Positions 176 to 15,347 of a stretch of DNA of 64,000 nucleotides are shown in pieces; within the stretch, counting starts at the first letter, position 1; the number at the start of each line of letters is the position of its first letter. This DNA comes from Rhodococcus sp. ARC_M5. GTDB taxonomy: Bacteria; Actinomycetota; Actinomycetes; Mycobacteriales; Mycobacteriaceae. Location: assembly GCF_022810405.1 (NCBI RefSeq), contig NZ_JALGQE010000007.1:1-64000 (forward strand). The letters are read 5' to 3'. The position numbers and the translations under genes were made by a program. Under the pieces are notes generated by a model. It ran no database searches. It was not told where the DNA came from and worked only from the letters and a program-made list of their open reading frames with translations.

Positions 176-1342
176 ATGGTTGCCAATATTTCGTTTCCTC
201 GGTTCCTCAAGCTGGGTGGCGGTGCCGTCGACGAGCTGGGGACGGTTCTCACCGACCTCGGCGTGTCACGGCCGTTGCTCGTCACCGATGCGTTCATGGC
301 CGGCAACGGCTCGGCGGATCGTCTGATGACGATCATGACCGAGGCCGGGAAGACGCCGGCACTGTTCTCGGGCACCGTTCCGGATCCGACGACCGATTCG
401 TTGGTCGCGGGACTCGAAGCGGTGCAGCAGCATTCGGCCGATTCGATCATCGGGTTCGGCGGTGGCAGTCCGATGGACACTGCCAAGGCGCTGGCCATTC
501 TCGCGGTGCAGGGCGGCAGGATGCGGGACTTCAAGGCTCCGGTGCTGTCGACCGGACCGGCCCTGCCGATCATCGCCATTCCCACCACGGCCGGAAGTGG
601 TTCGGAGGCAACTCAGTTCACCATCATCACCGACGTGGCCTCGGACGAGAAGATGCTGTGCCCCGGCCTGTCGTTCCTCCCGATCGCCTCGATCATCGAC
701 TTCGAGTTGACCATGTCGATGCCGGCTCGCCTCACCGCAGACACCGGGGTCGATGCCCTGACCCACGCCATCGAGGCGTACGTCAGCAAGAAGGCCAACC
801 CCATCTCCGACGGTTTGGCGCTCAGCGCGATTCGCACGATCGGGACGTCGTTGCTGCGGGCGTATCGGGACGGCGAAGATCGGCAGGCGCGCGAGGCGAT
901 GATGCATGCCTCGACGCAGGCGGGCATGGCGTTCTCCAATGCGAGTGTCTGTTTAGTGCACGGGATGAGTCGACCGATCGGCGCGCATTTCCATGTGGCA
1001 CACGGGCTGTCCAACGCGATGCTGTTGCCTGCTGTCACCGCATTCTCCATCGACGGGGCGCAGGCGCGTTACGCCGACTGCGCTCGTGCGCTCGGTGCGG
1101 CATCGGAAGGCGACTCCGATCAGGTCGCCGGTGGCAAGTTGCAGGATGCGATCGTCACATTGTGCCGTGAGGTGGAGGTTCCGACGCCGCAGACCTTCGG
1201 TATCGACAGGGCGAAGTGGGACGAGCTATTGCCGCTCATGGCCGAGCAGGCTCTCGCCTCGGGTAGTCCGGGCAACAATCCGGTCGTTCCGACGGCGGAG
1301 CAGATCGTCGATCTGTACCGCCAGGTGTACGCGGGAATCTAA
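176..1342 (+). CDS. Iron-containing alcohol dehydrogenase
   Basis: This is a 388-residue group III (iron-dependent) alcohol dehydrogenase, expected to interconvert an alcohol and its aldehyde with NAD(P). The cofactor-binding motif GGGSPMDTAK lies at residues 95-104. The four metal ligands of the family can be placed at D193, H197 (in GVDALTHAIEAY), H262 and H276. The length is normal for the family and the protein looks complete. An AAGGAG ribosome-binding site sits a few bases before the ATG. It is followed by a convergent amino-acid permease, so it is probably transcribed alone or with genes to the left of the window. The substrate cannot be read from the sequence. Confidence 0.9.
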   Translation: MVANISFPRFLKLGGGAVDELGTVLTDLGVSRPLLVTDAFMAGNGSADRLMTIMTEAGKTPALFSGTVPDPTTDSLVAGLEAVQQHSADSIIGFGGGSPMDTAKALAILAVQGGRMRDFKAPVLSTGPALPIIAIPTTAGSGSEATQFTIITDVASDEKMLCPGLSFLPIASIIDFELTMSMPARLTADTGVDALTHAIEAYVSKKANPISDGLALSAIRTIGTSLLRAYRDGEDRQAREAMMHASTQAGMAFSNASVCLVHGMSRPIGAHFHVAHGLSNAMLLPAVTAFSIDGAQARYADCARALGAASEGDSDQVAGGKLQDAIVTLCREVEVPTPQTFGIDRAKWDELLPLMAEQALASGSPGNNPVVPTAEQIVDLYRQVYAGI

Positions 1343-1348
1343 TCGCAC

Positions 1349-2749
1349 TCACTCCGATGCGCGGGCGGCGACACTGTCGCGCCGCGCATTTCGGCGTTGC
1401 ACCACAATTCCGCCGATCACGGTCACTGCGGCGAGGACGGCCGAGAGCAGGATCGACGACCGCTGCTCCGGCCGCACCACCATCATCACCAGGACGAACA
1501 CGATGAATCCGATGGCCAGGTAGGTCAGCCACGGATACAGCCACATCCGAACGGCAGGACGTTCGCCGTCGCGGTCGAGGTGACGCCGTAGCACCAGCTG
1601 GCTGCTGGCGATGGCGAGGTAGACGAAGAGCGCGACAGCACCCGTGGTCGCCAGCAGGTAGGTGAAGAGTTTCTCGGGCAGGATGTAGTTTCCGACCACG
1701 GCGAGGAACCCGAGCACCATCGAGGCGATCACCGCAATCCACGGCACCCCGTTCGTGGTGATCTTCTTGACCGCCCTCGGTGCGTCGCCTCGATCGCCGA
1801 GCGAATACAGCATGCGCGACGCGGTGTAGAGCGCCGAATTCAGGCACGACGCAACAGCGGTCAGAATGACGATGTCCATGATGGTGTCGGCATGCGGGAT
1901 TCCCATCTTGGACAGCACGTACTGGTACGAGCCCGTGTTCGGGTCCAGTTCGTTCCAGGGCACCAGCGCGACGATGACGAAGATGGAACCGAAGTAGAAG
2001 ATCGAAATTCGCCAGATGACCGAGTTGGTGGCGCGGGTGATGCCCTTTGCCGGGTCCTTGGATTCGGCAGCGGCGATGGTGACGATTTCCGAGCCCATGA
2101 ACGAGAACATCGTCGTCAGCATGGCCGCGATCACCGCGCCGAACCCGAGAGGCATGAATCCACCGGAGGCCCAGAGTTGGTCCACACCACTGACTTCCGA
2201 ATCGGGTAGCCATCCCAGAATGGCCGCGATCCCGAGGCCGATGAACGCGATGATCGCCACGACCTTGACCAGCGCGAACCAGAACTCGAATTCGCCGTAG
2301 TTGCCGACGCTGATCAGGTTTGTCGCGGTGAGGGCAATGACGATGAGCAGTGCCCACATCCATTGGGCTCCGCCGAGCCAGTTGGTGAGAATGGATGCAG
2401 CCGCGGTGGCTTCGACCGGGATCACCAACACCCAGAACCACCAGTAGAGCCAACCGACCGAGAAGCCGGCCCAGTGACCGAGCGCGCGAGTGGCATACGT
2501 GGAGAACGAGCCGGTGTCGGGATTGGCCGTCGCCATCTCCCCCAGCATGCGCATCACCAGGATCACGAGTGTTCCCGCGAACAGGTACGCCAGCAGCACC
2601 GCCGGGCCTGCCGTCGCGATGGCGTTGGCCGAACCCACGAACAATCCCGCGCCGATGACCCCGGCAATCGAAATCATCGTCACGTGCCGTGGTTTCAGGC
2701 TGGTACCGAGTCCTTGCTCGCCGGTGTCCGGCTTCTCCGTGATGGACAT
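1349..2749 (-). CDS. APC-family amino-acid permease
   Basis: A 466-residue secondary transporter of the amino-acid/polyamine/organocation superfamily, close to the GabP/AnsP/AroP subgroup. The N-terminus carries the family signature around VIGAGLFVGSA after a short cytoplasmic tail, and about twelve hydrophobic segments follow. The start chosen is the ATG giving MSITEKPD; an upstream in-frame extension exists but lacks family similarity. The gene ends six bases from the converging alcohol dehydrogenase. It should import amino acids or GABA by proton symport; the substrate is not determinable here. Confidence 0.88.
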   Translation of the reverse strand: MSITEKPDTGEQGLGTSLKPRHVTMISIAGVIGAGLFVGSANAIATAGPAVLLAYLFAGTLVILVMRMLGEMATANPDTGSFSTYATRALGHWAGFSVGWLYWWFWVLVIPVEATAAASILTNWLGGAQWMWALLIVIALTATNLISVGNYGEFEFWFALVKVVAIIAFIGLGIAAILGWLPDSEVSGVDQLWASGGFMPLGFGAVIAAMLTTMFSFMGSEIVTIAAAESKDPAKGITRATNSVIWRISIFYFGSIFVIVALVPWNELDPNTGSYQYVLSKMGIPHADTIMDIVILTAVASCLNSALYTASRMLYSLGDRGDAPRAVKKITTNGVPWIAVIASMVLGFLAVVGNYILPEKLFTYLLATTGAVALFVYLAIASSQLVLRRHLDRDGERPAVRMWLYPWLTYLAIGFIVFVLVMMVVRPEQRSSILLSAVLAAVTVIGGIVVQRRNARRDSVAARASE

Positions 2750-2995
2750 CCCTGAAGTTGAACATAAAATGAACGCCGACGCAGAGAGTGACCGATATGT
2801 CCAGAATGTCTGTGGGGCAGCCATTTCCACGCACATCGCAGCACAATCGATACCTCTCGATTCGTCAAAGCGGGCTCGTGATGTTCACCGTCGCGGACCT
2901 TGCGAACAGGCCGGACCGGCGGCCCGATCTCGTCCCACGGCACCGCATTCCTCAGGCTCACCGACGCGACCGACTGATCCCGGCATACTGGACCG

Positions 2996-3937
2996 ATGAA
3001 CTCCGAAGCGGGCACCATCACCGATCCGGTCACCATCGTCGGTGCGGGCATAGCCGGCGCGGCCTGTGCGCGGGTTCTTCGCGACGCAAACGTGCCGTTC
3101 CGCATCATCGACCGAGGCCGAGCTCCGGGTGGGCGGATGTCGTCGCCGGAGTTGCACGGCCGTCGCGTCGATCTGGGGGCGGGATACTTCACCGTTCGTG
3201 ATCAGGAATTTTCGACGGTGGTCGCGGACTGGGAGTCAGGCGGATTGGCGCGGCAGTGGGCCAACACGTTCGGCATCCTCAAGCCCGAGACGGCACCGTG
3301 CACCACGACCGGACCGGTTCGCTGGGCCACCCCGGGCGGGCTGCGATCGTTGGTACGAAACATGCTCGACGGCTTCGACATCCAACATTCCACCGAGTTG
3401 ACCGAATTGCCCGACGGCCACGTAGTGGTCGCCATGCCAGATCCGCAGGCAACGCGACTGACCGCAGTTCCAGATGCCGTCGACTACGAACCGGTGATCG
3501 CGGTGGCGTGCGGGTTCGACGGGCTCGACATCCCCTTCCGTGGCGCAGCGTTCGTCAACGATCATCCCGATATCGATTTTGTCGTCGACGACGGTGCTCG
3601 CCGCGGCGACGGCGCTCCGGTTCTGGTGGTGCACACCACGTCGGAGCGAGCGCAGCAGCATCTCGAGAATCCCGACGGTGCGATCGCCCCGGTTCTCGAC
3701 GCATTGCGCGAACTATCGGTCGTCTCTGCAGCACCCAGTTGGACGCACGCCCATCGATGGACGTTCGCAAAGCCTGCGTCGCAGCACGATTCCACGTGTG
3801 CGCTCGAGCAGCGCGACGGACGACTCGTCGGGTTCGCCGGCGATCAATGGTGTGCATCCGGAGCGCCCAGAGTGGAAAGCGCATGGCGTTCGGGCACGGA
3901 TGTCGGTACCGAGTTGGTTGGTCGTCTTCGGGGCTGA
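2996..3937 (+). CDS. Renalase-like FAD-dependent oxidoreductase
   Basis: A 313-residue flavoprotein with an N-terminal dinucleotide-binding motif, VGAGIAGAAC at residues 15-24, followed by an IIDRGRAPGGRM segment typical of the amine-oxidase/renalase group that contacts FAD. A second conserved stretch, RRVDLGAGYFTVRD, follows. Length and motif order match bacterial renalase-type NAD(P)/FAD oxidoreductases, which in some bacteria oxidise isomeric forms of NAD(P)H; that role is an inference here. It begins with ATG, is divergent from the permease upstream, and is followed 44 bases later by a small conserved gene on the same strand. Confidence 0.8.
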   Translation: MNSEAGTITDPVTIVGAGIAGAACARVLRDANVPFRIIDRGRAPGGRMSSPELHGRRVDLGAGYFTVRDQEFSTVVADWESGGLARQWANTFGILKPETAPCTTTGPVRWATPGGLRSLVRNMLDGFDIQHSTELTELPDGHVVVAMPDPQATRLTAVPDAVDYEPVIAVACGFDGLDIPFRGAAFVNDHPDIDFVVDDGARRGDGAPVLVVHTTSERAQQHLENPDGAIAPVLDALRELSVVSAAPSWTHAHRWTFAKPASQHDSTCALEQRDGRLVGFAGDQWCASGAPRVESAWRSGTDVGTELVGRLRG

Positions 3938-3981
3938 CGTTTGCCCTGCGTCCACCTACGACGCCGATTAGCATCTCCCCC

Positions 3982-4410
3982 GTGCTGTCCGTGAAGTCGT
4001 ACCCACGCGAATACATCGACGCCTGCCGTGCGCGCCTCGATTCTCAGCTGGCCACCTACCGTGCGGTCGCGTCGAATCGAACGACGACCACCGACGTGGA
4101 CGAGGCATTCGACGTCGCTTTCTTCAACAATCTCGTGCTGACGCTGGAGGTGTACTTCTTGCACCGGATGCGTGGGCAGGAGAAGAAGAACGGCAATCCG
4201 CTCAACGAGGTCCGGGTACTGGCCGCGTCGATGACAGCAGCAGACGACGTGATGACCAGCGATCCGACGATCAACCTCGACCCGAAGAAGAGCATTCTCG
4301 GGTACGCCGTCGGCGACACCATCGCACTCGACGAGAAGCAGTTCGTCGCATTGGCCGACGCGTACTTCGCCGAGATCGAGGCCAAGTTCGGGCCGCAGCT
4401 CGCTCCCTAA
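3982..4410 (+). CDS. Conserved hypothetical protein (142 aa)
   Basis: A 142-residue protein that I cannot assign to a named family. The reading frame is open far upstream, but only the part from the GTG at the given start resembles a real protein (VLSVKSYPREYIDACRAR); an in-frame GTG nine bases later is also possible. It is soluble, rich in acidic residues, and has a central segment, FFNNLVLTLEVYFLHRMRG, that looks helical. The stop codon interlocks with that of the convergent nitroreductase (4-base overlap). No catalytic motif is evident. Confidence 0.7.
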   Translation: MLSVKSYPREYIDACRARLDSQLATYRAVASNRTTTTDVDEAFDVAFFNNLVLTLEVYFLHRMRGQEKKNGNPLNEVRVLAASMTAADDVMTSDPTINLDPKKSILGYAVGDTIALDEKQFVALADAYFAEIEAKFGPQLAP

Positions 4411-5081
4411 TTGCTGACGAATCTCACCGTCTCGTCCAGAGGCGCTCGGTTGGTGCGGAATCCGTTGATCGGGTGAGTCTCGTCGGGATAACCGAAGGAG
4501 ATGCCGGCCACCACTTTTCGAGTCTCGGGGATGTCGAACCACTCGTGCAGAAACGGTGAGTACGCGGCCAAGGCTGCTTGCGCGATGGCTGCAAGACCGA
4601 GGCTCTGGGCGGCCAGCAGGAAAGTCTGCAGATACAACCCACAATCGACGGCGCCATACACACCGAGATCGGCATCGGTGGTGATGATGGCTGCGTGCGG
4701 GGCGTCGAACAGCTCGAAATTGCGAATGAACTGACGAGTCGTCGCCTCGGTGTCGGACTTCACCACACCGATGCTCTCGTACAGAGCGCCACCGCATTCG
4801 CGTCTGCGCGCTCGGTGCAGGGCGTTGTAGTTGGCCGGAAACGGGAAGTCCGGCTGCGGCACCCCGGATGTCACGTGCTCCACCAATGCCTCGGAGAACT
4901 TGCGGGTGGCGTCGCCCTCGGTCACGATGATCTGCCACGACTGGGTGTTGGACCACGAAGGTGTGCGCCGGGCGGCAGACAGTAGCTGTTCGAGTACCTC
5001 ACGCGAGACCTGCTTCGACAGAAACTGTCGGCACGAGTACCTCTCGTCGAGGAGTTCGGTCAGTGCTTCGTACCGGGTCAC
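4407..5081 (-). CDS. Nitroreductase family protein
   Basis: A 224-residue FMN-dependent nitroreductase-fold protein. The N-terminal FMN-phosphate-binding stretch RYSCRQF is followed by a segment ARRTPSWSNTQSWQIIV, the classic positions where this family contacts FMN, and near the C-terminus KVVAGISFGYPDE is characteristic. It should reduce nitro-aromatic, quinone or similar substrates with NAD(P)H. The start is the GTG preceded by GAGG at eight bases; a TTG 51 bases upstream would extend it without adding family similarity. It is the last chromosomal gene before the tRNA-Val island. Confidence 0.85.
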   Translation of the reverse strand: MTRYEALTELLDERYSCRQFLSKQVSREVLEQLLSAARRTPSWSNTQSWQIIVTEGDATRKFSEALVEHVTSGVPQPDFPFPANYNALHRARRRECGGALYESIGVVKSDTEATTRQFIRNFELFDAPHAAIITTDADLGVYGAVDCGLYLQTFLLAAQSLGLAAIAQAALAAYSPFLHEWFDIPETRKVVAGISFGYPDETHPINGFRTNRAPLDETVRFVSN

Positions 5082-5192
5082 GTCGTCCGCCTCGTGTCTG
5101 TGCTGTCGGGTGCGGATCGAAGGTAACACCAAGGCCGAGACGGACTGTCGGGCGAGGCACCGTCATCAGAGGGTAAGCCGAGAGTCGTGAAA

Positions 5193-5237
5193 ATGGTGGG
5201 CGCAGAGGGGTTCGACCCCCGACCGCTGGTGTGTAAA
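5193..5237 (-). repeat. attL: Left attachment-site copy (tRNA-Val 3' fragment)
   Basis: These 45 bases repeat the 3' half of the tRNA-Val(TAC) gene located at 11192-11266, from the encoded CCA through the T-arm to the anticodon loop. The only difference is one missing A in the T-loop (ttcgaccccc against ttcgaaccccc). The 5' half of a tRNA is absent, so this is not a functional tRNA. Together with the intact copy it brackets 6.0 kb that includes an integrase remnant, the signature of tRNA-targeted integration by a tyrosine recombinase. The indel indicates decay since integration. Confidence 0.9.
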
Positions 5238-5343
5238 TGGCATTCGAGCCGTCTAGTGTGTCGAGCCCCGTCCAATAACTCCAGGTCAAGACCGTCGAGT
5301 GTCCAGTAGGTCCAGTGCGTGCCGTGCCGAATTGTTGCGTCTT

Positions 5344-5371
5344 GGCACACTGGCGGCACACTGGCGGGGGT
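5344..5371 (+). repeat. Left-end tandem GGCACACTGGC repeat (putative arm site)
   Basis: Two perfect tandem copies of GGCACACTGGC followed by GGGGGT lie about 105 bp inside the left attachment copy. A closely related sequence in the same orientation lies 50 bp inside the right end (11115-11141). Paired repeats inside both ends of an integrated element are what is expected of arm-type sites bound by tyrosine integrases or excisionases. That function is inferred from position only. Confidence 0.55.
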
Positions 5372-5375
5372 TCGG

Positions 5376-5840
5376 TCAGAACGTCCAGCGCTGCGACTCG
5401 ATGAAGCCCATGAGGTTCAGAACCGGGACACCCAGCGAGTCACACACATCGGGGATCCTCGGCTTGGAGAGGTTGCCGGATCGCGTTTCCTCGGAGACGA
5501 CCACCCCGTTGCGAGCCATCGCGAGCGCAATGACGAATGGGTCACCACCGCTGCGCTTGCCTCCTGCCCTCACGAGATCGGGGTGAGCCTTCAGGATGGC
5601 CGTGGTGGCGCTCTGAACGTCGTCCTCGATCGGCACGAAAAGGCCGCTCTGTTTGTCCGCCCATTTCTTGGCGTCGTCGTCTCGCTTAGACAGCTCGTTG
5701 TTCACTTCGTCTATTGCTCGGATGTCACCGCTCGCGATGCTCGCCTCGATCTGCTCCCACAGCCGAACGAACACCGTGGGACGAAACAGGTCGCGACGGC
5801 CGTTCAGTATCGAGCTGGTGTCGAAAGAATAGGGTGCCAC
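5376..5840 (-). CDS. PIN-like DUF4411 protein, probable toxin
   Basis: A 154-residue protein with the layout of the DUF4411 PIN-fold family: an early acidic residue in YSFDTSSIL (D7), conserved acidic positions in the middle (IDEVNNEL), and GGDPFVIALAMARNG where the PIN fold normally has its third acidic residue. PIN proteins are metal-dependent ribonucleases. It starts at a GTG that overlaps the stop codon of the upstream HTH-ImmA gene by one base, so the two are translationally coupled. This pairing is a known toxin-antitoxin-like arrangement; here the PIN protein is the likely toxin. It sits just inside the left end of the island. Confidence 0.8.
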   Translation of the reverse strand: MAPYSFDTSSILNGRRDLFRPTVFVRLWEQIEASIASGDIRAIDEVNNELSKRDDDAKKWADKQSGLFVPIEDDVQSATTAILKAHPDLVRAGGKRSGGDPFVIALAMARNGVVVSEETRSGNLSKPRIPDVCDSLGVPVLNLMGFIESQRWTF

Positions 5841-7033
5841 TAACCGGCCTCACGTAACGCGGCGTTCTCGGCCAGCTTCGCGATCTGGCCGACCTTCGCG
5901 TTCAAGTAAATAGCAGCGGTATTGCTGTCGATCACACGTCTCCTGTGCGCATCCGTGACCGCGCGGACGTACCCCTTACCCAGGTCACGAACAGTGTTCC
6001 GGTACCAGTTTCCGCCTAGTGGCCGCGCCGCATCGTCCTTCTCGTACGCGGCCACGTACTCGTCGCGCCGACGTTCGTAGTACGACACAGGAACGATCTC
6101 CAACGTACTGAGCCGTCGCAAGAACGCTTCGGCGCTCACACCGAACGGTGCAGCCGCCTGCCTGAGCGCCACGTAGTCCCACGCCTCGGGCGTAGAGACC
6201 CGTGCGATCACTTCCGGTCTACCGCGCACCTGGTCCCCCGGCATGAGAACCATGGCGGCGATGGCGTTGCACCGCGCCTCCAGGCTCCGGTTCGGCGTCA
6301 CCGCCTTCGCATCGGATGTCGTATCGCACAGGCCCTCTGTGTGCAGCGCCAGGTGCGCGAACTCGTGCAGCAGCGAGAACAACCGACCCCGCGGGGCGTC
6401 GGCTCCGTTAAGTACGATCACCGGCAGCACGTCGAAGTACAGCGAGAAGGCGCGCATCTCCTCGCGCGAGACCTTGCCGCCTTTGGTGTTCAGGACGAGA
6501 ACCCCCGCCGCCTCGACAGCGGCGACCCACGTGTTGAGGAAGTCGTACGGCGTGCCGGAGGCTCCGGGAAGCGATAGAGGACCTAGGTCGAGAAGCGTTC
6601 GACGACTGCGAGCGGCAATATCGTTATCGCTGTCCGGCCCCGAGATGGGTATACGCCAGGTGAATGGGAGTTCTCTGTCTTCAGTTTCCGCCAATTCGAT
6701 AGCAAAGTCTCGCTGTGTGTGTCCGCGACGGAATTCGTCGTGCAGCGCTGGTGACCACTCCCCCTCGACTGAACCAGCGATCCTTCGGAAGTCACGCAGT
6801 GTGTCGAACTCCACGGGGGGTTCCGACAGGAAAAAGACTGCGAGCGAACGGCGGTAGACCTCCGCTGCCTTGCGAAGCTGCGCAATCGATGGCGTCGCCG
6901 TGCCGTCCTCCCATGCGGATACGCGATCGTCCGCGAGACCCAGCTTCCTGGATGCAGCCAGCTGGGACAGACCGCACGATTCCCGAGCCCACCGAAGCAC
7001 GGAGACTTCGACGGGAGCCGCGATCGAGGGCAT
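5840..7033 (-). CDS. XRE-HTH / ImmA-IrrE metallopeptidase, probable antitoxin
   Basis: A 397-residue two-domain protein. Residues about 8-62 form an XRE-type helix-turn-helix (LRWARESCGLSQLAASRKLG), and the C-terminal half holds an ImmA/IrrE zinc-peptidase motif, HEFAH, at residues 223-227. Such fusions act as repressors and protease regulators in mobile elements and pair with PIN (DUF4411) partners. The downstream PIN gene overlaps it by one base, so both should be made together and the HTH probably autoregulates the pair. It begins with ATG and is divergent from the first HEPN-motif gene across a 207-bp gap that must contain both promoters. Confidence 0.85.
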   Translation of the reverse strand: MPSIAAPVEVSVLRWARESCGLSQLAASRKLGLADDRVSAWEDGTATPSIAQLRKAAEVYRRSLAVFFLSEPPVEFDTLRDFRRIAGSVEGEWSPALHDEFRRGHTQRDFAIELAETEDRELPFTWRIPISGPDSDNDIAARSRRTLLDLGPLSLPGASGTPYDFLNTWVAAVEAAGVLVLNTKGGKVSREEMRAFSLYFDVLPVIVLNGADAPRGRLFSLLHEFAHLALHTEGLCDTTSDAKAVTPNRSLEARCNAIAAMVLMPGDQVRGRPEVIARVSTPEAWDYVALRQAAAPFGVSAEAFLRRLSTLEIVPVSYYERRRDEYVAAYEKDDAARPLGGNWYRNTVRDLGKGYVRAVTDAHRRRVIDSNTAAIYLNAKVGQIAKLAENAALREAG

Positions 7034-7240
7034 ACCCGAGATAATGCACGAAGTTAGACCCAGATGGTAGCGAGGAACCAGGCGCGGTCTGCCGCGATCC
7101 CGTTCGGCCTCCTATACCTCTTAAGCCTCATGGCGCTGGGACAGTCACCACTCGGATTCGAAGATCAGACGTCGCTGATCGTGCGTGGCGTACCGTCCAG
7201 TTGACGTGCAAGATTAGCCCCCTCGAAGTGGGGAGTCGAT

Positions 7241-7927
7241 GTGTTCGGAATCGAGGTCTCAGTGGGCGTTGCTTCCCGTCACTATCTCGCGACACAGCAC
7301 TTGTGGACTGCCCAGCACGCGGCTCGTCTATGCGGCGAGGTCGAGACGGCGTTGCGGAAGACGCAAGTCGGAAACGTCGTCGAGCACCGTTCACACGCCG
7401 TCACAGCGGTGTTGTCATCGGTGGCATATCTCGAATGCCTCGTGAACCAGGTCTTTCAGGACGTGGCAGACACCGAGCAGGGCCAGCCAAACTCCCGCAC
7501 CGAGGGCATCACCGAGGCAGCACAATCCCTAATGCGGACGCTGTGGACGGACGCCAGGCTGGACACCAAACTCACGGTCATCGACAAATATCAGCTGGCT
7601 CTTCTTTGCGTCGGAAAGCCCCGGCTCGAAACGGGTCGCGATCCCGTCCAGAGTGCGGCCCTCCTCGTCCGGCTTCGTAACGAACTAGTGCACTTCAAGC
7701 CGGAGTGGCACGACCACGCGGACGAACACCGCTTCGAAAGGCAATTGAAGAACAGGTTCGCGGACAGTCGATTGCCGGGTGATCCGTGGTTTCCAAACAA
7801 GTGCCTCGGTGCCGGGTGTGCGTCGTGGGCTTGCGACACGGCATCTGCGCTAGCGGTTGAGTGGTGGAGTCGGATGGGTCTGACATTCGATTACTCCGCT
7901 GACATGCGAGATTGGGCCAACCCGTAA
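7241..7927 (+). CDS. HEPN-motif protein of unknown family (228 aa)
   Basis: I do not recognise the family of this 228-residue protein, but it contains VRLRNELVHFKPEW, in which R146-N147 and H151 match the R-x4-6-H catalytic motif of HEPN ribonucleases. It is predicted mostly helical and soluble, with several cysteines and tryptophans near the C-terminus. HEPN domains occur in toxins and abortive-infection proteins, which fits its place in a defence-like island. The GTG start has a good GGGGAG site six bases upstream. No nucleotidyltransferase (MNT) partner is adjacent. RNase activity is an inference from the motif. Confidence 0.68.
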   Translation: MFGIEVSVGVASRHYLATQHLWTAQHAARLCGEVETALRKTQVGNVVEHRSHAVTAVLSSVAYLECLVNQVFQDVADTEQGQPNSRTEGITEAAQSLMRTLWTDARLDTKLTVIDKYQLALLCVGKPRLETGRDPVQSAALLVRLRNELVHFKPEWHDHADEHRFERQLKNRFADSRLPGDPWFPNKCLGAGCASWACDTASALAVEWWSRMGLTFDYSADMRDWANP

Positions 7928-8127
7928 TCCCGTTGTTTCGTGATGGCAACGACAGTGTCCGGGAGGCTAGTCGGCTCGCTGAAGGGGCAGGATTGCGCGG
8001 CCTCGTGAGGATGGGAACTTGTAGAAAGCTCGGCGACCGCTTTGAGAAACGAAATGGCGCAGCCAGAAGTGTTGCTGGCATCGTACCCATGCAAGCTGCG
8101 TAGATACTCCGGAAACTCCGTCGAACG

Positions 8128-9102
8128 ATGGGCAGGTGGCGCGTGAATGCTGAGCGGTCCCACAAGGCTGCATGGGGCATCGAGCGTGAGCAGCGGCTGG
8201 CTCAGCTCGAACTACTTCCGGGCAAGTACCACCACGAACGGTTCGAGGGTCTGAACCGGACATCGCGGCTGTTCGGGACGAACGGTGAAGAGCTCGTGCA
8301 CCACATCTCGACATTCGTGGGTAGACGCCAGCATGTGAACGACCTTTCCGACGAGTTCGAGCACGAGACTGTGCGCCTCTTTCACAATTACCTGGCATCT
8401 GTAGCAACACTGCGGGACGTCCAGCGCGCGACCCATCGCAAGCTCTGGCCGACACGGATTCCCGCCGAACAGCGCAGCAGCTCCTCCGACTCCAGGACGG
8501 TGTGGGAAGCCGAAACCTATGAACCGACAGTCACGAAGCTGTTCGGGGACGACGACATCAAATTCCTGTTCGACTTGCGCAACTTCACCGTTCACTATGC
8601 GGTGCCCGTGATGTCGATCGGAACTACATTCAGCCACCGCCCGCCAGCCCCGATGCGGCAAATCAATCGGGTCGACCTTCTGCGTGCAGAGCTGAACAAA
8701 TACTCCAAGTGGAGTGGTGCCGCGAAACGATTCCTGAACACCCAGAAGGGTGACGTCGAGTTCCTTCCCCTGATCGAGAAGTATCAGTCACGAGCGAGAA
8801 CCTTCTACGGGTGGTTCTGGGATCAGGTGAAGGACGCGGTTCGCACCGAGGTTGATGAGTACCACGCCAAGAGCAACGAGTTCGCCCTCTGGTTAGCCGA
8901 GGAAATGGCAACGCCGGATTGGGGCGATGACGGTATGCCAGTGCCTGGTTCGATCCGTCGCAACAGGGCGCGAGCACACGCAGCGCGATTCGCGAACGGA
9001 ACCGATGGGTGGAGAACGAATTCAGTCGAACCCAGTGGAACGGTCGCGCTGGGTGAATCCGACTGGACGCCACTACCGCCTGTGGGCAAGTATCGGCGGT
9101 GA
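8128..9102 (+). CDS. Second HEPN-motif protein of unknown family (324 aa)
   Basis: A 324-residue protein without clear overall resemblance to the preceding gene, yet it too carries an RNxxxH motif: DLRNFTVHY, with R151-N152 and H156. This is the R-x4-6-H pattern of HEPN RNases. The rest is rich in charged residues and looks helical; the C-terminus is low-complexity and probably disordered. It follows the first HEPN gene after 200 bp, so it probably has its own promoter. An alternative GTG start lies 15 bases in. The function is unknown; an antiviral or abortive-infection role is suggested only by motif and island context. Confidence 0.66.
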   Translation: MGRWRVNAERSHKAAWGIEREQRLAQLELLPGKYHHERFEGLNRTSRLFGTNGEELVHHISTFVGRRQHVNDLSDEFEHETVRLFHNYLASVATLRDVQRATHRKLWPTRIPAEQRSSSSDSRTVWEAETYEPTVTKLFGDDDIKFLFDLRNFTVHYAVPVMSIGTTFSHRPPAPMRQINRVDLLRAELNKYSKWSGAAKRFLNTQKGDVEFLPLIEKYQSRARTFYGWFWDQVKDAVRTEVDEYHAKSNEFALWLAEEMATPDWGDDGMPVPGSIRRNRARAHAARFANGTDGWRTNSVEPSGTVALGESDWTPLPPVGKYRR

Positions 9103-9128
9103 GGCTGAGCTAGTCAGTCGTAGGGCAG

Positions 9129-9926
9129 GTGCACGGTAAACGATTCCGGCGCATCACCGCATCGAATCGCGGCGCGGATCATCCGATCGTGGCGCTCGTC
9201 GCCGTCCATCCCGAGCGAGGCGAGCACGGCCTCGTGCCCCACACTGCCGTCTACGTGGATCGCCTACTGGCGGCTGGTGATGTCGTCCGTCCTGAACGCG
9301 GCCGTTACGCCGCTGCATGTTCGAGCGAACCAGCAATCCCGGCAGTGCCCGGAGGTGTCTCGCCACGCACCGTGTGCACGATGCTGACGGTACTGTCGTC
9401 GGCGTTGACGACCGCCGTCAAACGCGGTCTGATCGCTCGCAATGTCGCCCAGCTGATCGACCGCCCCTCGGTCGCTCACACGGAAATGAAGTTCTGGCAG
9501 CCCGCCGAGTCCGAGCAGTTCCGGCGACAAGTGTCAGGTGACCGGCTCTATGCGTGCTGGCTGCTGACCCTCGCCGGATGGCGGCGATCTGAGGTGCTGG
9601 GGCTGACATGGGATCGGGTTAACTTCGACGATGGGACGGTAACGGTAGCGGCCGGTCGCGTCGTCGTGAGAGGACGAGCCACCGTCATAGGCGATCCCAA
9701 GTCTGCTCGCTCGCGTCGTACCCTTCCGCTACCGGCCGACATTATGACCGCACTCCGCACTGCACGAACGAATCAGGCGCGGGAGCGACTGGCTCTCGGG
9801 TCGGGCTACGTCGATTCAGGATTCGTAGCGGTGTCAGAGGACGGCACGCCCATCCGACCCGAGACCTACTCGAAGATGTTTCGTAGGCACTGCGATGCTG
9901 CCGCGGTTTCGGTAATCCGGTTTCAC
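9129..9926 (+). pseudogene. int: Truncated tyrosine recombinase (integrase)
   Basis: The frame encodes the middle of a site-specific tyrosine recombinase: a SAM-like core-binding helix bundle (LTVLSSALTTAVKRGLIARNV), then the catalytic domain with Arg I in GWRRSEVLGLTW and the conserved Lys in GDPKSARSRRTLPLP. Similarity stops at VIRFH, the first histidine of the HxLRH box, so Arg II, the following histidine and the nucleophilic tyrosine are missing. The frame stays open to 10070 with unrelated sequence that overlaps the next gene. The N-terminus also looks incomplete. It is surely the remnant of the enzyme that inserted the island into tRNA-Val. Confidence 0.85.
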
Positions 9927-9962
9927 CTCGACGTGATGGTTGGCGTCTTGGGTTGCGCTGTT

Positions 9963-11072
9963 CTAGTTTTCGCCATCAAGATCGGCGCGAGACCTACGAG
10001 GTCGCGAAGGGGGATCGTACGTCTCGTAAGAGAGCCCCTGCTCCAAAGCACCCTTACTGAGGTGCTCTAGAAGGCGCTCCTCCTGTTCTGCTGTGAGACG
10101 TTCTGCGATTTGTACTGCCTCATCGTGAATATCTGGCACTTCCAGGAACTCAAGGATTTCGAACTTGTCGTCCTCAGTAAGCGCCACAGCAGCACTGCCG
10201 AACTGGACGTGCGGGCCTCCGCGCTCGTTAACGATCTTGCCGATCTTGAGACGACGAGTCACGAACTCACAAGCCAAGCGGTTCAAGTACACCGCGTCGT
10301 CGTCACGGTCAGTGCCATCAAGGATCTCGTTGATTCCGTGGCACGCGCTGTAGAAGCGATCTAGGAGCATCAACTCTTTTAGCGGCACTCGTCGAAGAGT
10401 TCGCACGAATCGATCGTCGTTCGTGGTTGGGGCCTTACTCGAAATGTCCGCGCCGGTGTCGTAGGTGAGCAGGTGAACCTCACGGAACGGTGTGGCGCGA
10501 AGTGCATCGCGCACGCGCTCGTTCAACAGCAAAGATGCCGAATATCTTTGCGCATTGAAATCGAGTCGGAACCAGTCGAGGACGATGAGGTTGATGTGCT
10601 GAAACTCTGTGTAGTCGTAGTTCAGTCCCGATTTTCCCTCGATGGTTTCAGCCAGGACAGCGTGGAAATCAGACCGCGTAGGGGGATGCTCGACAAGCAC
10701 GACCGGCAGGTTCTCGTGCTTGACGTTTCCGTCCTTGTCGGTCACCTTCGCGGTGGTGGCCTGCAGGCGGTCAACATCATCTCGGTGACGGTGGCGCGCA
10801 CCCTCCCACAGCGACTCCAAGTAACCGGGCATCATGTGCACCCGAGCGTGGGATCCGTCCGGGAACATCTGCGTGATCTCGACACCGAACGGTTCCGTGT
10901 CCGCGTTGGACCGCAGCGCAAAGTCGGGACGCTCCTGCTCATCGATTTCGTCGAAGTCGTCGGGCCGATATACGAACTCCAAGATGATGCGCTCATGCGC
11001 ACGTTTCCGTTCAGCGCTCGTCATACCCGCGAAGAGTTCATCTTCAGTTCCCACGCGTGGACCGTAGCGCAC
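9963..11072 (-). CDS. Hypothetical protein, possible PD-(D/E)XK-like fold
   Basis: A 369-residue acidic protein that I cannot place in a named family. Near the N-terminus E32 (IILEF), then RPDFAL (D50) and, after a short gap, FGVEIT (E65, T67) follow the spacing of a PD-(D/E)XK restriction-like nuclease core, though the usual lysine is replaced by threonine, so activity is doubtful. The remainder is mixed alpha/beta with an acidic helical C-terminus. It begins with ATG 119 bases from the tRNA-Val end of the island and runs into the broken integrase. Island position suggests a defence or accessory role. Confidence 0.6.
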   Translation of the reverse strand: MRYGPRVGTEDELFAGMTSAERKRAHERIILEFVYRPDDFDEIDEQERPDFALRSNADTEPFGVEITQMFPDGSHARVHMMPGYLESLWEGARHRHRDDVDRLQATTAKVTDKDGNVKHENLPVVLVEHPPTRSDFHAVLAETIEGKSGLNYDYTEFQHINLIVLDWFRLDFNAQRYSASLLLNERVRDALRATPFREVHLLTYDTGADISSKAPTTNDDRFVRTLRRVPLKELMLLDRFYSACHGINEILDGTDRDDDAVYLNRLACEFVTRRLKIGKIVNERGGPHVQFGSAAVALTEDDKFEILEFLEVPDIHDEAVQIAERLTAEQEERLLEHLSKGALEQGLSYETYDPPSRPRRSRADLDGEN

Positions 11073-11114
11073 GTGGCTTCTCTAACTGCGATGAAAGTGG
11101 GAGAGTCCGCATTC

Positions 11115-11141
11115 GGCACAGTCGCGGCACATAGCGGGGGT
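11115..11141 (+). repeat. Right-end GGCACA repeat (putative arm site)
   Basis: GGCACAGTCGC followed directly by GGCACATAGC and GGGGGT. It matches the tandem repeat at 5344-5371 at most positions and in the same orientation, and lies about 50 bp inside the intact tRNA end of the island. It is interpreted as the partner arm-type site of the lost integrase. Confidence 0.5.
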
Positions 11142-11191
11142 CAATCGAACCAAAGCAAGTAGGTCGCCAAGCTGCTGAGCTGCGAAAATCA

Positions 11192-11266
11192 TGGTGGGCG
11201 CAGAGGGGTTCGAACCCCCGACCGCTGGTGTGTAAAACCAGAGCTCTACCGCTGAGCTATACGCCC
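11192..11266 (-). tRNA. tRNA-Val (anticodon TAC)
   Basis: A complete cloverleaf can be folded from the reverse strand: acceptor GGGCGTA paired with TGCGCCC, D-arm AGCTCAGCGGTAGAGCT, anticodon stem CTGGT/ACCAG with loop TTTACAC (anticodon TAC), T-arm around GGTTCGAACCCC, discriminator A and an encoded CCA (75 nt with CCA). It decodes GUA valine codons. Its 3' half, from the anticodon loop to CCA, is the attachment site of the island on its downstream side; the insertion regenerated the gene, so it remains intact. Confidence 0.96.
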
Positions 11267-11846: not shown

Positions 11847-12269
11847 CTACCGCTTGGTGGCAGGGGTCTTGGGCTGAACCAATCGACTTCCGATCCAGTC
11901 ACCGAGGTTTGCCGCAGAGGTCTGCGTCAATCCTGCGGTCGGGGCGGACTCGGCAATCTCACTGGGTTCGACATGACCGGACATGCCGGTCTTGGGACTG
12001 AGGACCCACACGATGCCATCGTCCGAGAGCGGACCGATCGCATCCATGAGTGCGTCGACCAGGTCACCGTCTCCGTCGCGCCACCACAGCAGTACAACGT
12101 CGATCACCTCGTCGGAATCCTCGTCGAGGGTCTCGCCACCGATCGCATCTTCTACGTCGGCGCGTAGATCATCGTCGGTGTCCTCGTCCCAGCCCAGCTC
12201 CTGTACGACCATGTCGCGAGTGATGCCAAGTTTCTGAGCGTAGTTCTGAGCGTCCGCCGCGGCGACCAC
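11847..12269 (-). CDS. DUF3052 family protein
   Basis: A 140-residue acidic protein matching the actinobacterial DUF3052 family (Rv2239c-like), with the N-terminal helix YAQKLGITRDMVVQELGWDEDTDDDL and a central DIVLLWW-like segment (VIDVVLLWWRDGDGDL). The role is unknown. The GTG start is preceded by AAGGAGG at eight bases. It sits between ahpE and the divergent aceE, as in M. tuberculosis; the 31-base gap to ahpE suggests a two-gene operon. Confidence 0.85.
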   Translation of the reverse strand: MVAAADAQNYAQKLGITRDMVVQELGWDEDTDDDLRADVEDAIGGETLDEDSDEVIDVVLLWWRDGDGDLVDALMDAIGPLSDDGIVWVLSPKTGMSGHVEPSEIAESAPTAGLTQTSAANLGDWIGSRLVQPKTPATKR

Positions 12270-12527
12270 GGTGGTGACCTCCTTGAATTGTGGGTGCAGT
12301 AGTCAAAGCGAACAGTGTTGAAGCCGTTCGCGCAAGCTGACCGCGCCGAAATTGCGTACATAAATTTCTACTGGTGGGTATCGGACCTCTGTACTACCAG
12401 AACCGGCAAGATGCGGCAGGATTGGGGAGGAATCACGAGAACGAGGAAAGTAGACCGCCGTCACAGGGGCGGGTCTACCGGGACCGGGCGCCACACCGAG
12501 CGTCCGCCACATTGAGGAGTGCACACG

Positions 12528-15347
12528 TTGTCCGAAGTGAACAGCGGCGAACGGCAGAACACATCGTCTGCAGGAAAAAAGGGCTCGGACGGCCGGGTCC
12601 GCGTCATCCGCGAGGGTGTCGCGTCGTACCTGCCCGATATCGACAACGACGAGACGAACGAATGGATCGAATCGTTCGACGGCTTGTTGGAGAGGTCCGG
12701 CCCCAACCGCGCTCGCTACCTGATGCTCAGGTTGCTCGAGCGCGCCGGTGAGCGCCGCGTAGCGCTGCCGTCGCTGACGTCGACGGATTACGTCAACACC
12801 ATTCCCACCGAGAACGAGCCGTGGTTCCCAGGCGACGAGTCGATGGAACGCCGCTACCGCGCCTGGATCCGCTGGAATGCCGCGATCATGGTGCACCGCG
12901 CGCAGCGTCCCGGCGTCGGCGTCGGCGGCCACATCTCGACCTACGCGTCCTCCGCAGCGCTCTACGAGGTGGGCTTCAACCACTTCTTCCGCGGCAAGGA
13001 CCACCCGGGCGGCGGCGACCACATCTTCATCCAGGGTCACGCCTCCCCCGGCATCTACGCCCGCGCCTTCCTCGAAGGCCGCATTCCGGCCGAGCGCATG
13101 GACGGCTTCCGTCAGGAGGCCAGCCACGTGAACGAGGGCGGCGGACTGCCGTCGTACCCGCACCCCCGCCTCATGCAGGATTTCTGGGAGTTCCCGACGG
13201 TGTCGATGGGTCTCGGCCCGATGAACGCCATCTACCAGGCCCGCTTCAACCACTACCTCAACGACCGCGGCATCAAGGACACCACCGATCAGCACGTGTG
13301 GGCCTACCTCGGCGACGGCGAGATGGACGAGCCGGAATCGCGTGGACTCGCCCACGTGGCCGCCACCGAGGGCCTCGACAACCTCACGTTCGTCGTGAAC
13401 TGCAACCTGCAGCGCCTCGACGGCCCGGTCCGCGGCAACGGCAAGATCATCCAGGAACTGGAGTCGTTCTTCCGCGGTGCCGGCTGGAACGTCATCAAGG
13501 TCGTCTGGGGCCGCGAGTGGGACTCGCTGCTGCACAAGGACCGCGACGGCGCACTGGTGAACCTCATGAACACCACGCCCGACGGCGACTTCCAGACCTA
13601 CAAGGCCAACGACGGCAGCTACGTCCGCGATCACTTCTTCGGCCGCGATCCGCGCACCAAGGAGCTCGTGAAGGATCTGTCCGACGACGAGATCTGGAAC
13701 CTCAAGCGCGGCGGCCACGACTACCGCAAGGTGCACGCTGCCTACGCCGCCGCGATGTCGCACAAGGGCCAGCCGACGGTCATCCTGGCGCACACCATCA
13801 AGGGCTACACCCTCGGCAAGCACTTCGAGGGCCGTAACGCCACGCACCAGATGAAGAAGCTGACGCTCGACGATCTCAAGACGTTCCGCGATCTCCAGCA
13901 CATCCCGATCTCGGACGAGGAACTCGAGAAGGATCCGTACATGCCGCCGTACTACCACCCCGGCCCGGATGCTCCCGAGATCCAGTACATGCTCGATCGT
14001 CGCAGCAAGCTCGGCGGATTCGTTCCCGAGCGCCGCGTCGACGTCAAGCCACTGCCGCAGCCCGGCGACGACACGTACAAGACGCTGCGCAAGGGCTCCG
14101 GCAAGCAGGAAGTCGCCACCACGATGGCGCTCGTGCGCGTCATGAAGGAGCTGTTGCGAGACAAGGAGATCGGCCACCGAATCGTGCCGATCATTCCCGA
14201 CGAGGCCCGTACGTTCGGTATGGACTCGTGGTTCCCGTCGCTGAAGATCTACAACCGCAACGGCCAGCTGTACACCTCGGTGGACTCGGAGCTGATGCTC
14301 GCCTACAAGGAGAGCTCGGTCGGCCAGATCCTGCACGAGGGCATCAACGAGGCCGGTTCGACGTCGTCGTTCACCGCAGTCGGCACCTCGTACGCCACAC
14401 ACGGCGAGGTCATGATTCCGCTGTACATCTTCTACTCGATGTTCGGATTCCAGCGCACCGGCGACGGTCTCTGGGCAGCGGCCGATCAGATGGCTCGCGG
14501 ATTCGTCCTCGGAGCGACCGCAGGTCGTACCACCCTCACCGGTGAGGGTCTGCAGCACGCAGACGGTCATTCGCTGCTCTTGGCGTCCACCAACCCGGCG
14601 GCCGTGGCCTACGACCCGGCGTTCTCGTACGAGATCGCGCACATCGTCAAGGACGGTCTGCGACGGATGTACGGCGGCACCGAAGGTGTCGAGGGCTTCG
14701 GCGGCGAGAACATCTTCTACTACATCACCCTCTACAACGAGCCGTACGTGCAGCCGGCCGAGCCGGAAAACCTCGACGTCGAGGGTCTGCTCAAGGGCAT
14801 CTACCGGTTCGCAGAGCCGCAGGAGGGCGACGGACCCGAGGCGCAGCTGTTGGCGTCGGGCGTCGGCATGGTCTCGGCCCGCAAGGCTCGTGAGCTGCTG
14901 TTCGAGGAGTGGGGCGTGCGTTCGGCCGTGTGGTCCGTCACCTCGTGGGGCGAACTGCGCCGTGACGGCGTCGACGCCGAGAAGGAGTCGCTGCGCAATC
15001 CCGGTGCGGACAAGCGCGTTCCGTTCGTCACCTCGGCCCTGGCCGACGCCAACGGTCCCGTCATCGCATCCTCGGATTGGATGCGTGCAGTTCCGGACCA
15101 GATCCGTCAGTGGGTTCCGGGTGATTACGTCACCCTCGGCACCGACGGCTTCGGGTTCTCCGATACCCGTCCGGCCGCGCGTCGGGTGTTCAACGTCGAC
15201 GCCGAGTCGATCGTCGTCGCCACGTTGTCCGCCCTCGCCGCATCCGGTGAGATCGACAAGTCCAAGGCCGTCGAGGCCGCGGAGAAGTACAAGATCGACG
15301 ACGTCACCGCGGCTCCGACCTCGTTCGCCGATACCGGTTCCGCGTAG
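12528..15347 (+). CDS. aceE: Pyruvate dehydrogenase E1 component, homodimeric type
   Basis: A 939-residue thiamine-diphosphate enzyme that decarboxylates pyruvate and passes the acetyl group to the E2 lipoyl domain. The single-chain (alpha2) type is clear from length and from segments such as [12 protein letters not shown] (Mg/ThDP-binding GDGxxxE), [20 protein letters not shown] cut short here as [12 protein letters not shown], and the transketolase-like C-terminal half. The start chosen is the TTG with GAGGAG eight bases upstream; a GTG nine bases earlier would overlap that site. It is followed by a strong hairpin and a PucR-type regulator, the same order as Rv2241-Rv2242. Confidence 0.95.

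Follow-up and report, generated by a model that had tools for sequence, protein, structure and literature searches.

Organization of the islet and its insertion site

The DNA analyzed here, referred to as the window, is a stretch of 64,000 nucleotides of Rhodococcus sp. ARC_M5 (contig NZ_JALGQE010000007.1, positions 1 to 64,000), and the element of interest is a 6-kb islet at an intact gene for tRNA-Val(TAC), the putative integration target (positions 11192 to 11266, minus strand; identified with ARAGORN and matched by Rfam RF00005 at 69 bits). The islet is enclosed by two copies of a direct repeat, both on the minus strand. One copy (positions 11191 to 11236) is the attachment-site copy inside the tRNA, and the other (positions 5193 to 5237), a partial copy of the tRNA 3' half, represents the predicted far attachment-site copy. 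The two are identical in 45 of 46 alignment columns, with a one-base gap in the remaining column, a match far beyond chance, and the tRNA region has matches at just these two places in the whole 5.4-Mb genome. The G+C content of the islet interior is 60.7%, and those of the left and right flanks are 63.0% and 65.0%, respectively.

The enclosed open reading frames (ORFs) encode a PIN-domain toxin, an XRE-ImmA antitoxin, two proteins with the Rx4H motif of HEPN RNases, a fragment of a tyrosine integrase, and an uncharacterized protein (positions 9963 to 11072). An earlier note on this DNA had described these genes as bracketed by a duplication of the tRNA 3' half and as free of mobility or phage structural genes. 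The duplication and the gene inventory stand, with corrected limits for the integrase, and searches of the six proteins against Pfam and PHROGs gave no phage structural or transfer match. As sites of a second tRNA islet in the window, tRNA-Asn and tRNA-Met were rejected: the 3' end of the former has no second copy, and that of the latter has only short or 78% partial matches, tRNA-Val itself included.

Occupancy of tRNA-Val(TAC) in related genomes

The genus set used for comparison comprised 37 genomes, the window's own included (G numbers denote genomes and L numbers denote loci). A peroxiredoxin at least 79% identical to that preceding the tRNA gene was present in 36 of the 37, and G017 (690 contigs) had only distant matches. 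In 35 relatives, at most 20 kb of DNA beyond the peroxiredoxin gene was compared (2.1 kb in the case of G018), and the tRNA gene followed in every one. One cargo gene, that at positions 9963 to 11072, was found there in a single relative (G021), and three others (G003, G006, and G011) had only distant integrase pieces (31 to 34% identity). The six genes are thus not a set that close relatives all carry without flanking repeats, the situation that the earlier note had set against an insertion.

For 13 of the relatives, the identity of the peroxiredoxin to that of the window reaches 94% or more. Of these, 12 also have the nitroreductase gene found beyond the other end of the islet (G008 lacks it within 20 kb), at distances from the tRNA gene that range from 175 bp (G010) to ~9.3 kb. 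In the variable DNA of these 12, islet-protein matches (E value, 1e-6) were limited to the distant integrase piece of G003 and the gene at 9963 to 11072 in G021. Five of the 12 (G003, G022, G023, G024, and G033) have in common, beside the nitroreductase gene, a block with a flavin oxidase and a transporter named by sequence reading, so the lineage of the window may also have lost host genes here. G013 and G030 have one hotspot gene in common. Partial tRNA copies of their own were seen in 4 of the 35 relatives (G023, G026, and G020, and G027 at 88%). G026 (L043, positions 580 to 8225) and G020 (L054) carry full-length integrases, 79% identical to each other, at the same tRNA-Val(TAC), with repeats of 44 and 45 nucleotides. 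Judged by these genomes, tRNA-Val(TAC) is an apparent integration hotspot in the relatives of the window.

The DNA just outside the partial tRNA copy of G023 is similar, on visual comparison, to the DNA that immediately follows the tRNA gene in G022 and G033, as an insertion at this tRNA predicts. The outer flank of the window resembles the corresponding DNA of G033, G022, and G023, where 5, 16, and 5 of 500 shuffles, respectively, were as good; at the other 12 of the 15 places compared, at least 78 of 500 shuffles were as good, G014 and G003 not being valid among those 12 because the search anchor fell upstream of the tRNA gene. G010 was rejected as a clean empty site: although only 175 bp separate its tRNA and nitroreductase genes, its flank is unlike that of the window (168 of 500 shuffles as good), and G022, G033, and G023 were therefore taken as the comparisons instead. 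The insertion into the tRNA gene put forward in the earlier note is supported by the repeat, the variable occupancy of the site, and the flank comparison. The empty-site comparison that it had suggested gives good evidence of the hotspot and modest evidence of an insertion of this islet itself.

The cargo of the hotspot was sampled with 14 proteins of relatives that were hand-picked from crude ORF lists and run against the PADLOC models. Four of the first 10 matched at an E value of 0.01 or better (PDC-S19 strongly, PDC-S60 partially, and an NYN nuclease and PDC-S31 weakly), and none of the further 4 did so.

Integrase remnant and mosaic composition

Within the ORF at positions 9129 to 10070 (plus strand), an internal fragment of a tyrosine integrase covers approximately positions 9255 to 9926 and is 78% identical over 224 amino acids to the integrase of G017, a copy that is itself cut by a contig end. 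The fragment aligns with residues 251 to 474 of the G017 protein (numbered from the preceding stop); ~168 residues between the likely ATG of that protein and residue 251 are absent from the window, and the alignments to the integrases of L190 and L191 end at the same point as that to the G017 protein, where the second catalytic box begins. The remnant is therefore without both the N-terminal part and the C-terminal catalytic part, which bears out the broken integrase of the earlier note. In a search confined to integrases of this kind, no other match to the query was found in the window's genome (E value, 0.001). With the repeat and the variable occupancy of tRNA-integrated islands but no functional integrase, the element is, to judge from its sequence, evidently the fixed remnant of such an island and not an active one.

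The DNA just after the second HEPN-motif gene (approximately positions 9114 to 9255) is 87% identical over 142 nucleotides to the DNA that directly follows the gene for HEPN-motif protein 1 of a tRNA-Leu islet in G003 (L137, positions 10349 to 10490). It reads as a protein C terminus on the minus strand and would thus represent a 3' fragment of an island gene. The same antisense fragment was seen in L196 and L197. The first ~44 residues of the "integrase" ORF were rejected as protein because DNA identity (80 to 88%) exceeds protein identity in that frame (53 to 67%), the conserved reading being held by the minus strand. On the other side, the window and G021 have the tRNA gene and the gene at 9963 to 11072 in common as one block (84% identity over 1338 nucleotides), which ends near position 9979; past this point, the G021 match resumes only at the left flank, the repeat itself aside. 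The G021-like stretch, the G017-like integrase, and the G003-like stretch show that at least three blocks were joined. The islet is similar to known tRNA-anchored genomic islands and defense hotspots in its 3' tRNA repeat, integrase gene, and variable DNA in relatives, but it differs from them in its very small size (6 kb), its destroyed integrase, and its mosaic blocks shared with two other genomes.

The PIN/XRE-ImmA pair resembles VapBC52

The first two genes of the islet are arranged in the order antitoxin-toxin on the minus strand, with the GTG start of the toxin gene overlapping the stop of the antitoxin gene. The toxin gene (positions 5376 to 5840) is predicted to encode a DUF4411 PIN-domain protein (Pfam E value, 4.5e-35) similar to VapC52 (PDB 9vzy_D; E value, 1.1e-65; residues 4 to 154). 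The antitoxin gene (positions 5840 to 7033) is predicted to encode a VapB52-like protein (PDB 9vzy_A; E value, 1.9e-180; residues 8 to 395) with an XRE helix-turn-helix domain (E value, 2e-9) and an ImmA/IrrE metallopeptidase domain (Peptidase_M78; E value, 1.8e-15). VapBC52 is the Rv2515c-Rv2514c pair of Mycobacterium tuberculosis (PDB 9vzy and 9vzz; PMC13273310). As read from the alignments, its zinc ligands H216, H220, and E245 correspond to H223, H227, and E252 of the window antitoxin, where the HEXXH motif is formed by H223-E224-x2-H227, while its cysteine switch C229 corresponds to C236, its F75-R76 motif to F82-R83, and its mutated toxin residue D6 to D7, the PIN catalytic Asp, which sits in an aligned YSFDTS stretch. 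The window pair thus combines a DUF4411 PIN protein that has its catalytic Asp with an antitoxin that has the XRE domain, HEXXH motif, glutamate ligand, Cys switch, and FR motif, and both proteins match over nearly their full lengths. Unlike VapBC52, the pair, with its predicted activity, trigger, and tRNA targets, sits in a tRNA islet together with two HEPN-motif genes.

In the VapBC52 report, self-cleavage of the antitoxin is induced by single-stranded DNA (ssDNA), the toxin cuts tRNA and cleaved all five of the phage D29 tRNAs tested, and Mycobacterium smegmatis overexpressing the VapC52 toxin survives D29 infection (PMC13273310). Fusions of COG2856 and XRE domains pairing with PIN toxins were noted in 2009 (PMC2701414), and the ImmA-domain antitoxins of RosmerTA, whose toxins are varied, have been tied to phage defense (PMC10440598). 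Like RosmerTA (RmrT/RmrA), the window pair combines an ImmA-domain antitoxin with an adjacent toxin gene, and the PADLOC RmrA models match the antitoxin at up to 58 bits (E value, 1.7e-16; profile positions 5 to 269 of 363). However, this is weak compared with the 423 bits of an RmrA protein in another islet (L138, described below), and the PIN protein matched no PADLOC model at an E value of 1. Of 401 genomes of the taxonomic family, 60 had ImmA homologues, many of them weak matches. The 19 best loci other than the window's were fetched, and in 17 of them a PIN gene adjoins the ImmA homologue; four of those pairs are 66 to 67% identical to that of the window.

Two families of HEPN-motif proteins

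Divergently from the antitoxin gene, the islet carries two genes on the plus strand whose products have the Rx4H motif, HEPN-motif protein 1 (positions 7241 to 7927; 228 amino acids) and HEPN-motif protein 2 (positions 8128 to 9102; 324 amino acids). In the alignment of 23 family 1 sequences, R146, L149, and H151 are invariant and N147 is nearly so; in that of 37 family 2 sequences, R151, N152, and H156 are invariant. Both families thus have the conserved Rx4-6H motif of the HEPN superfamily, which is the RNase signature of HEPN proteins, and they share with HEPN RNases a polar residue following the R of the motif and, upstream, invariant acidic residues (PMC3710099). Unlike these RNases, neither alignment gave a convincing Pfam HEPN match, and no fixed partner, such as a nucleotidyltransferase, was seen. 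HEPN_RiboL-PSP (PF18735) was weakly matched by 7 of the 23 family 1 members (best E value, 0.0067), the window protein not among them. No HEPN family was found among the Pfam matches of the 37 family 2 members at an E value of 1, which lowers the case for family 2 membership but does not exclude it, as Pfam is without some HEPN families. Neither family is matched by any curated model used above its cutoff. Searches for solved relatives of the two proteins, and of the protein at 9963 to 11072, gave nothing credible. The idea that families 1 and 2 are one family was rejected, as profile comparison gave a probability of 3% and aligned only the motif stretch.

Both families are rare in the 401 genomes: family 1 was found in 12 and family 2 in 13, the window's included in each count, one family 1 match being a degraded fragment and one family 2 match covering only 47 residues. 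No constant operon partner recurred in 11 family 1 or 17 family 2 loci, as examined with a crude ORF caller and BLAST. A ~200-amino-acid protein is encoded directly upstream of family 1 in both copies of G076 (L112, positions 5286 to 5891; L114, positions 5250 to 5867), and a look-alike, judged by eye, lies ~1.7 kb from family 1 in the G003 islet (L137, positions 12086 to 12694), where it had no Pfam or PADLOC match. As a constant partner of family 1, this protein offers too few cases to call. Neither the two families nor the hotspot was described among the matches listed for DUF4411, RosmerTA, HEPN and actinobacterial islands, COG2856-PIN, Rhodococcus islands, and Nocardia islets, a search of titles and abstract beginnings with subscription journals mostly outside its coverage.

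HEPN-motif genes recur in tRNA islets

A locus was scored as bracketed when the HEPN-motif gene lay between a tRNA gene and a repeat of that tRNA's 3' end on the same strand, the window's own islet not being counted. The loci comprised 17 of the 23 named for family 2 (the distant L085 to L090, outside Mycobacteriales, were left out, and some loci were partial or at contig ends) and 11 for family 1 (13 matches minus the window and the degenerate fragment). Family 2 was bracketed in 4 of 17 loci, at tRNA-Val(TAC), -Ala(CGC), -Pro(GGG), and -Gly(TCC), and family 1 in 2 of 11, at tRNA-Leu(CAA) and -Gly(CCC); the family 2 islet of Nocardia australiensis is bracketed by the same tRNA-Val(TAC) as the islet of the window. 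Overall, 6 of 28 loci were bracketed versus 0 of 40 evenly spaced control stretches from eight genomes (Fisher P = 0.003), and 11 of the 28 loci versus 5 of the 40 controls had a tRNA gene no more than 8 kb away (P = 0.012), a comparison made after the pattern was seen and with controls from fewer genera than the loci. A later set of 11 family 2 loci (13 matches minus the window and the 47-residue match) comprised 6 duplicates and 5 new loci, one of these on a 4.8-kb contig; 1 of the 5 was bracketed, at tRNA-Leu(CAA).

Two of the family 1 islets have company of known kinds. In G352, a 3.1-kb tRNA-Gly(CCC) islet with no integrase seen (L138, positions 7420 to 10569) contains, by ORF sorting, two clear genes, which are convergent and encode a family 1 protein and the XRE-ImmA protein matched by RmrA at 423 bits. 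The tRNA-Leu islet of G003 contains family 1 and a PDC-M32A candidate; three other proteins of this islet and one of L078 had no PADLOC match. A gene named flavodoxin-like by reading is a further insertion address for both families, with family 1 located after it in G328 (L106/L139) and G079 (L109/L142) and family 2 in Nocardia abscessus (L068). In G328, a diverged repeat of the 3' end of this gene (68% identity over 172 to 173 nucleotides) lies at the other border.

It is possible, although we would sooner doubt it than assert it, that each of the two families is a hitherto undescribed type of Mycobacteriales RNase that defends against phages as a single gene, with no antitoxin dedicated to it. 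Their vehicles would be minimal islets inserted at the flavodoxin-like gene and at many tRNA genes, and at shared sites the one family would stand in for the other. A neighboring ImmA protease may control family 1, a hint of which is the RmrA gene that accompanies family 1 in the 3.1-kb islet. What is novel in these findings is the recurrence of HEPN-motif genes as solo cargo. Repeatedly found in small tRNA islets, the two families are concrete candidates for one-gene anti-phage systems.

Proposed role of the islet and alternative explanations

The locus is probably best understood as a small mosaic islet that was inserted at the 3' half of tRNA-Val(TAC), lost its own integrase, and has phage defense by RNA damage as its likeliest role. 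The insertion, and the immobility of the islet by its own means, are well supported; phage defense is what we infer as the likeliest function. The element entered the tRNA 3' half, probably through a tyrosine recombinase, and later lost its own integrase, so that it should now be fixed unless an integrase acts in trans, for which the elements in G026 and G020 are possible sources. At rest, the VapB52-like antitoxin would block the PIN tRNase; ssDNA from phage replication or DNA damage would trigger antitoxin self-cleavage, and the freed toxin would cut tRNAs and halt growth, the self-cleavage and tRNA cutting being those shown for the M. tuberculosis relative. The HEPN-motif proteins probably act on their own as metal-independent RNases and would add infection-triggered RNA cleavage, and the protein at 9963 to 11072 may attack DNA. 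For the anti-phage reading of the earlier note, the VapBC52 match makes a defense role of the PIN/XRE-ImmA pair likely; for the HEPN-motif genes, such a role is plausible from their motif, patchy distribution, and company, and for the gene at 9963 to 11072 it is possible, from a partial motif and location. The cargo may also, as the earlier note proposed, be retained for its own value.

Several observations weigh against a defense role. M. smegmatis coexpressing toxin and antitoxin was not protected from D29, according to the VapBC52 report (PMC13273310). Five of the six islet proteins, all but the ImmA antitoxin, have no PADLOC match at an E value of 1, 10 of the 14 hotspot proteins of relatives, as a raw count, have none at their threshold, and part of the variable DNA of the hotspot resembles ordinary host genes. 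VapBC52 has also been linked to tolerance of copper and to survival inside the host, which would suit a general stress module, with the pair responding to metal stress or DNA damage and the islet unconnected with phages; activation of the antitoxin by ssDNA, which DNA damage also makes, would fit this. We nevertheless consider such a module very unlikely, given that RmrA and PDC-M32A are found in islets with family 1 and that the mobility of the parts would favor conflict with mobile elements. A mobile islet likewise seems to suit a defense role better than a purely pathogenesis-related one, and a VapBC52-type pair, described from M. tuberculosis, is here placed on such an islet in an environmental actinobacterium.

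Toxin-antitoxin pairs are common island stabilizers, and the broken integrase, antisense gene fragment, and mosaic joins are signs of decay, as expected if the pair merely stabilized a decaying element whose remaining DNA is passenger DNA without present function. This is unlikely, however, as five ORFs contain no stops and are close to their relatives in length, and recurrence of the HEPN-motif families in islets elsewhere is less expected of unselected passengers. The absence of structural, packaging, or replication genes from the Pfam and PHROGs matches of the islet, together with the lack of any match of the HEPN-motif proteins and the protein at 9963 to 11072 in 50,697 phage records (E value, 1e-5), makes it quite unlikely that the islet is what remains of a prophage or phage satellite at the tRNA where such an element usually sits, its cargo having been retained by chance. 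Such an origin would nevertheless agree with the full-length integrases of G026 and G020 between two tRNA-end copies at the same tRNA, the phage-type family of the integrase (PHROG 1; E value, 9.9e-31), the PHROGs matches of the antitoxin (5.1e-40), the PIN protein (3.9e-19), and, weakly, HEPN-motif protein 2 (0.0016), and the distant ImmA relatives in three phage records.

Protein 9963-11072 and plasmid relatives

The gene at positions 9963 to 11072 (minus strand) encodes an uncharacterized protein of 369 amino acids with no match in Pfam, PDB, PADLOC, NCBIfam, or PHROGs. The PD-(D/E)XK nuclease motif consists of PD followed by (D/E)-x-K. In the alignment of 20 sequences, E27, P49-D50-F51, G63-V64-E65, and T67 are invariant; K147 is invariant as well. 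P49-D50 and E65 resemble the motif, but T67 stands where K is usual, with K147 as a candidate for a substitute lysine. The protein is thus a possible PD-(D/E)XK-type nuclease, and the nuclease-fold label of the earlier note gains a partial motif without being confirmed. Few genomes have the protein family: with the window's genome included each time, there are 2 among 401 of the taxonomic family and 2 among 298 of the order. In a look for tRNA bracketing outside the genus, the sole relative found sits on a 15-kb contig without a tRNA gene.

A phage or plasmid origin of the islet as such was rejected, there being no phage match for the HEPN-motif proteins or the protein at 9963 to 11072 and no near plasmid match for the whole islet. 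Distant relatives of single islet genes do occur on plasmids. Those of family 1 were seen on six plasmid records, among them two from halophilic archaea and two from Streptomyces (NZ_CP111039.1, NZ_CP019286.1, and NZ_CP117710.1 are records from these groups).

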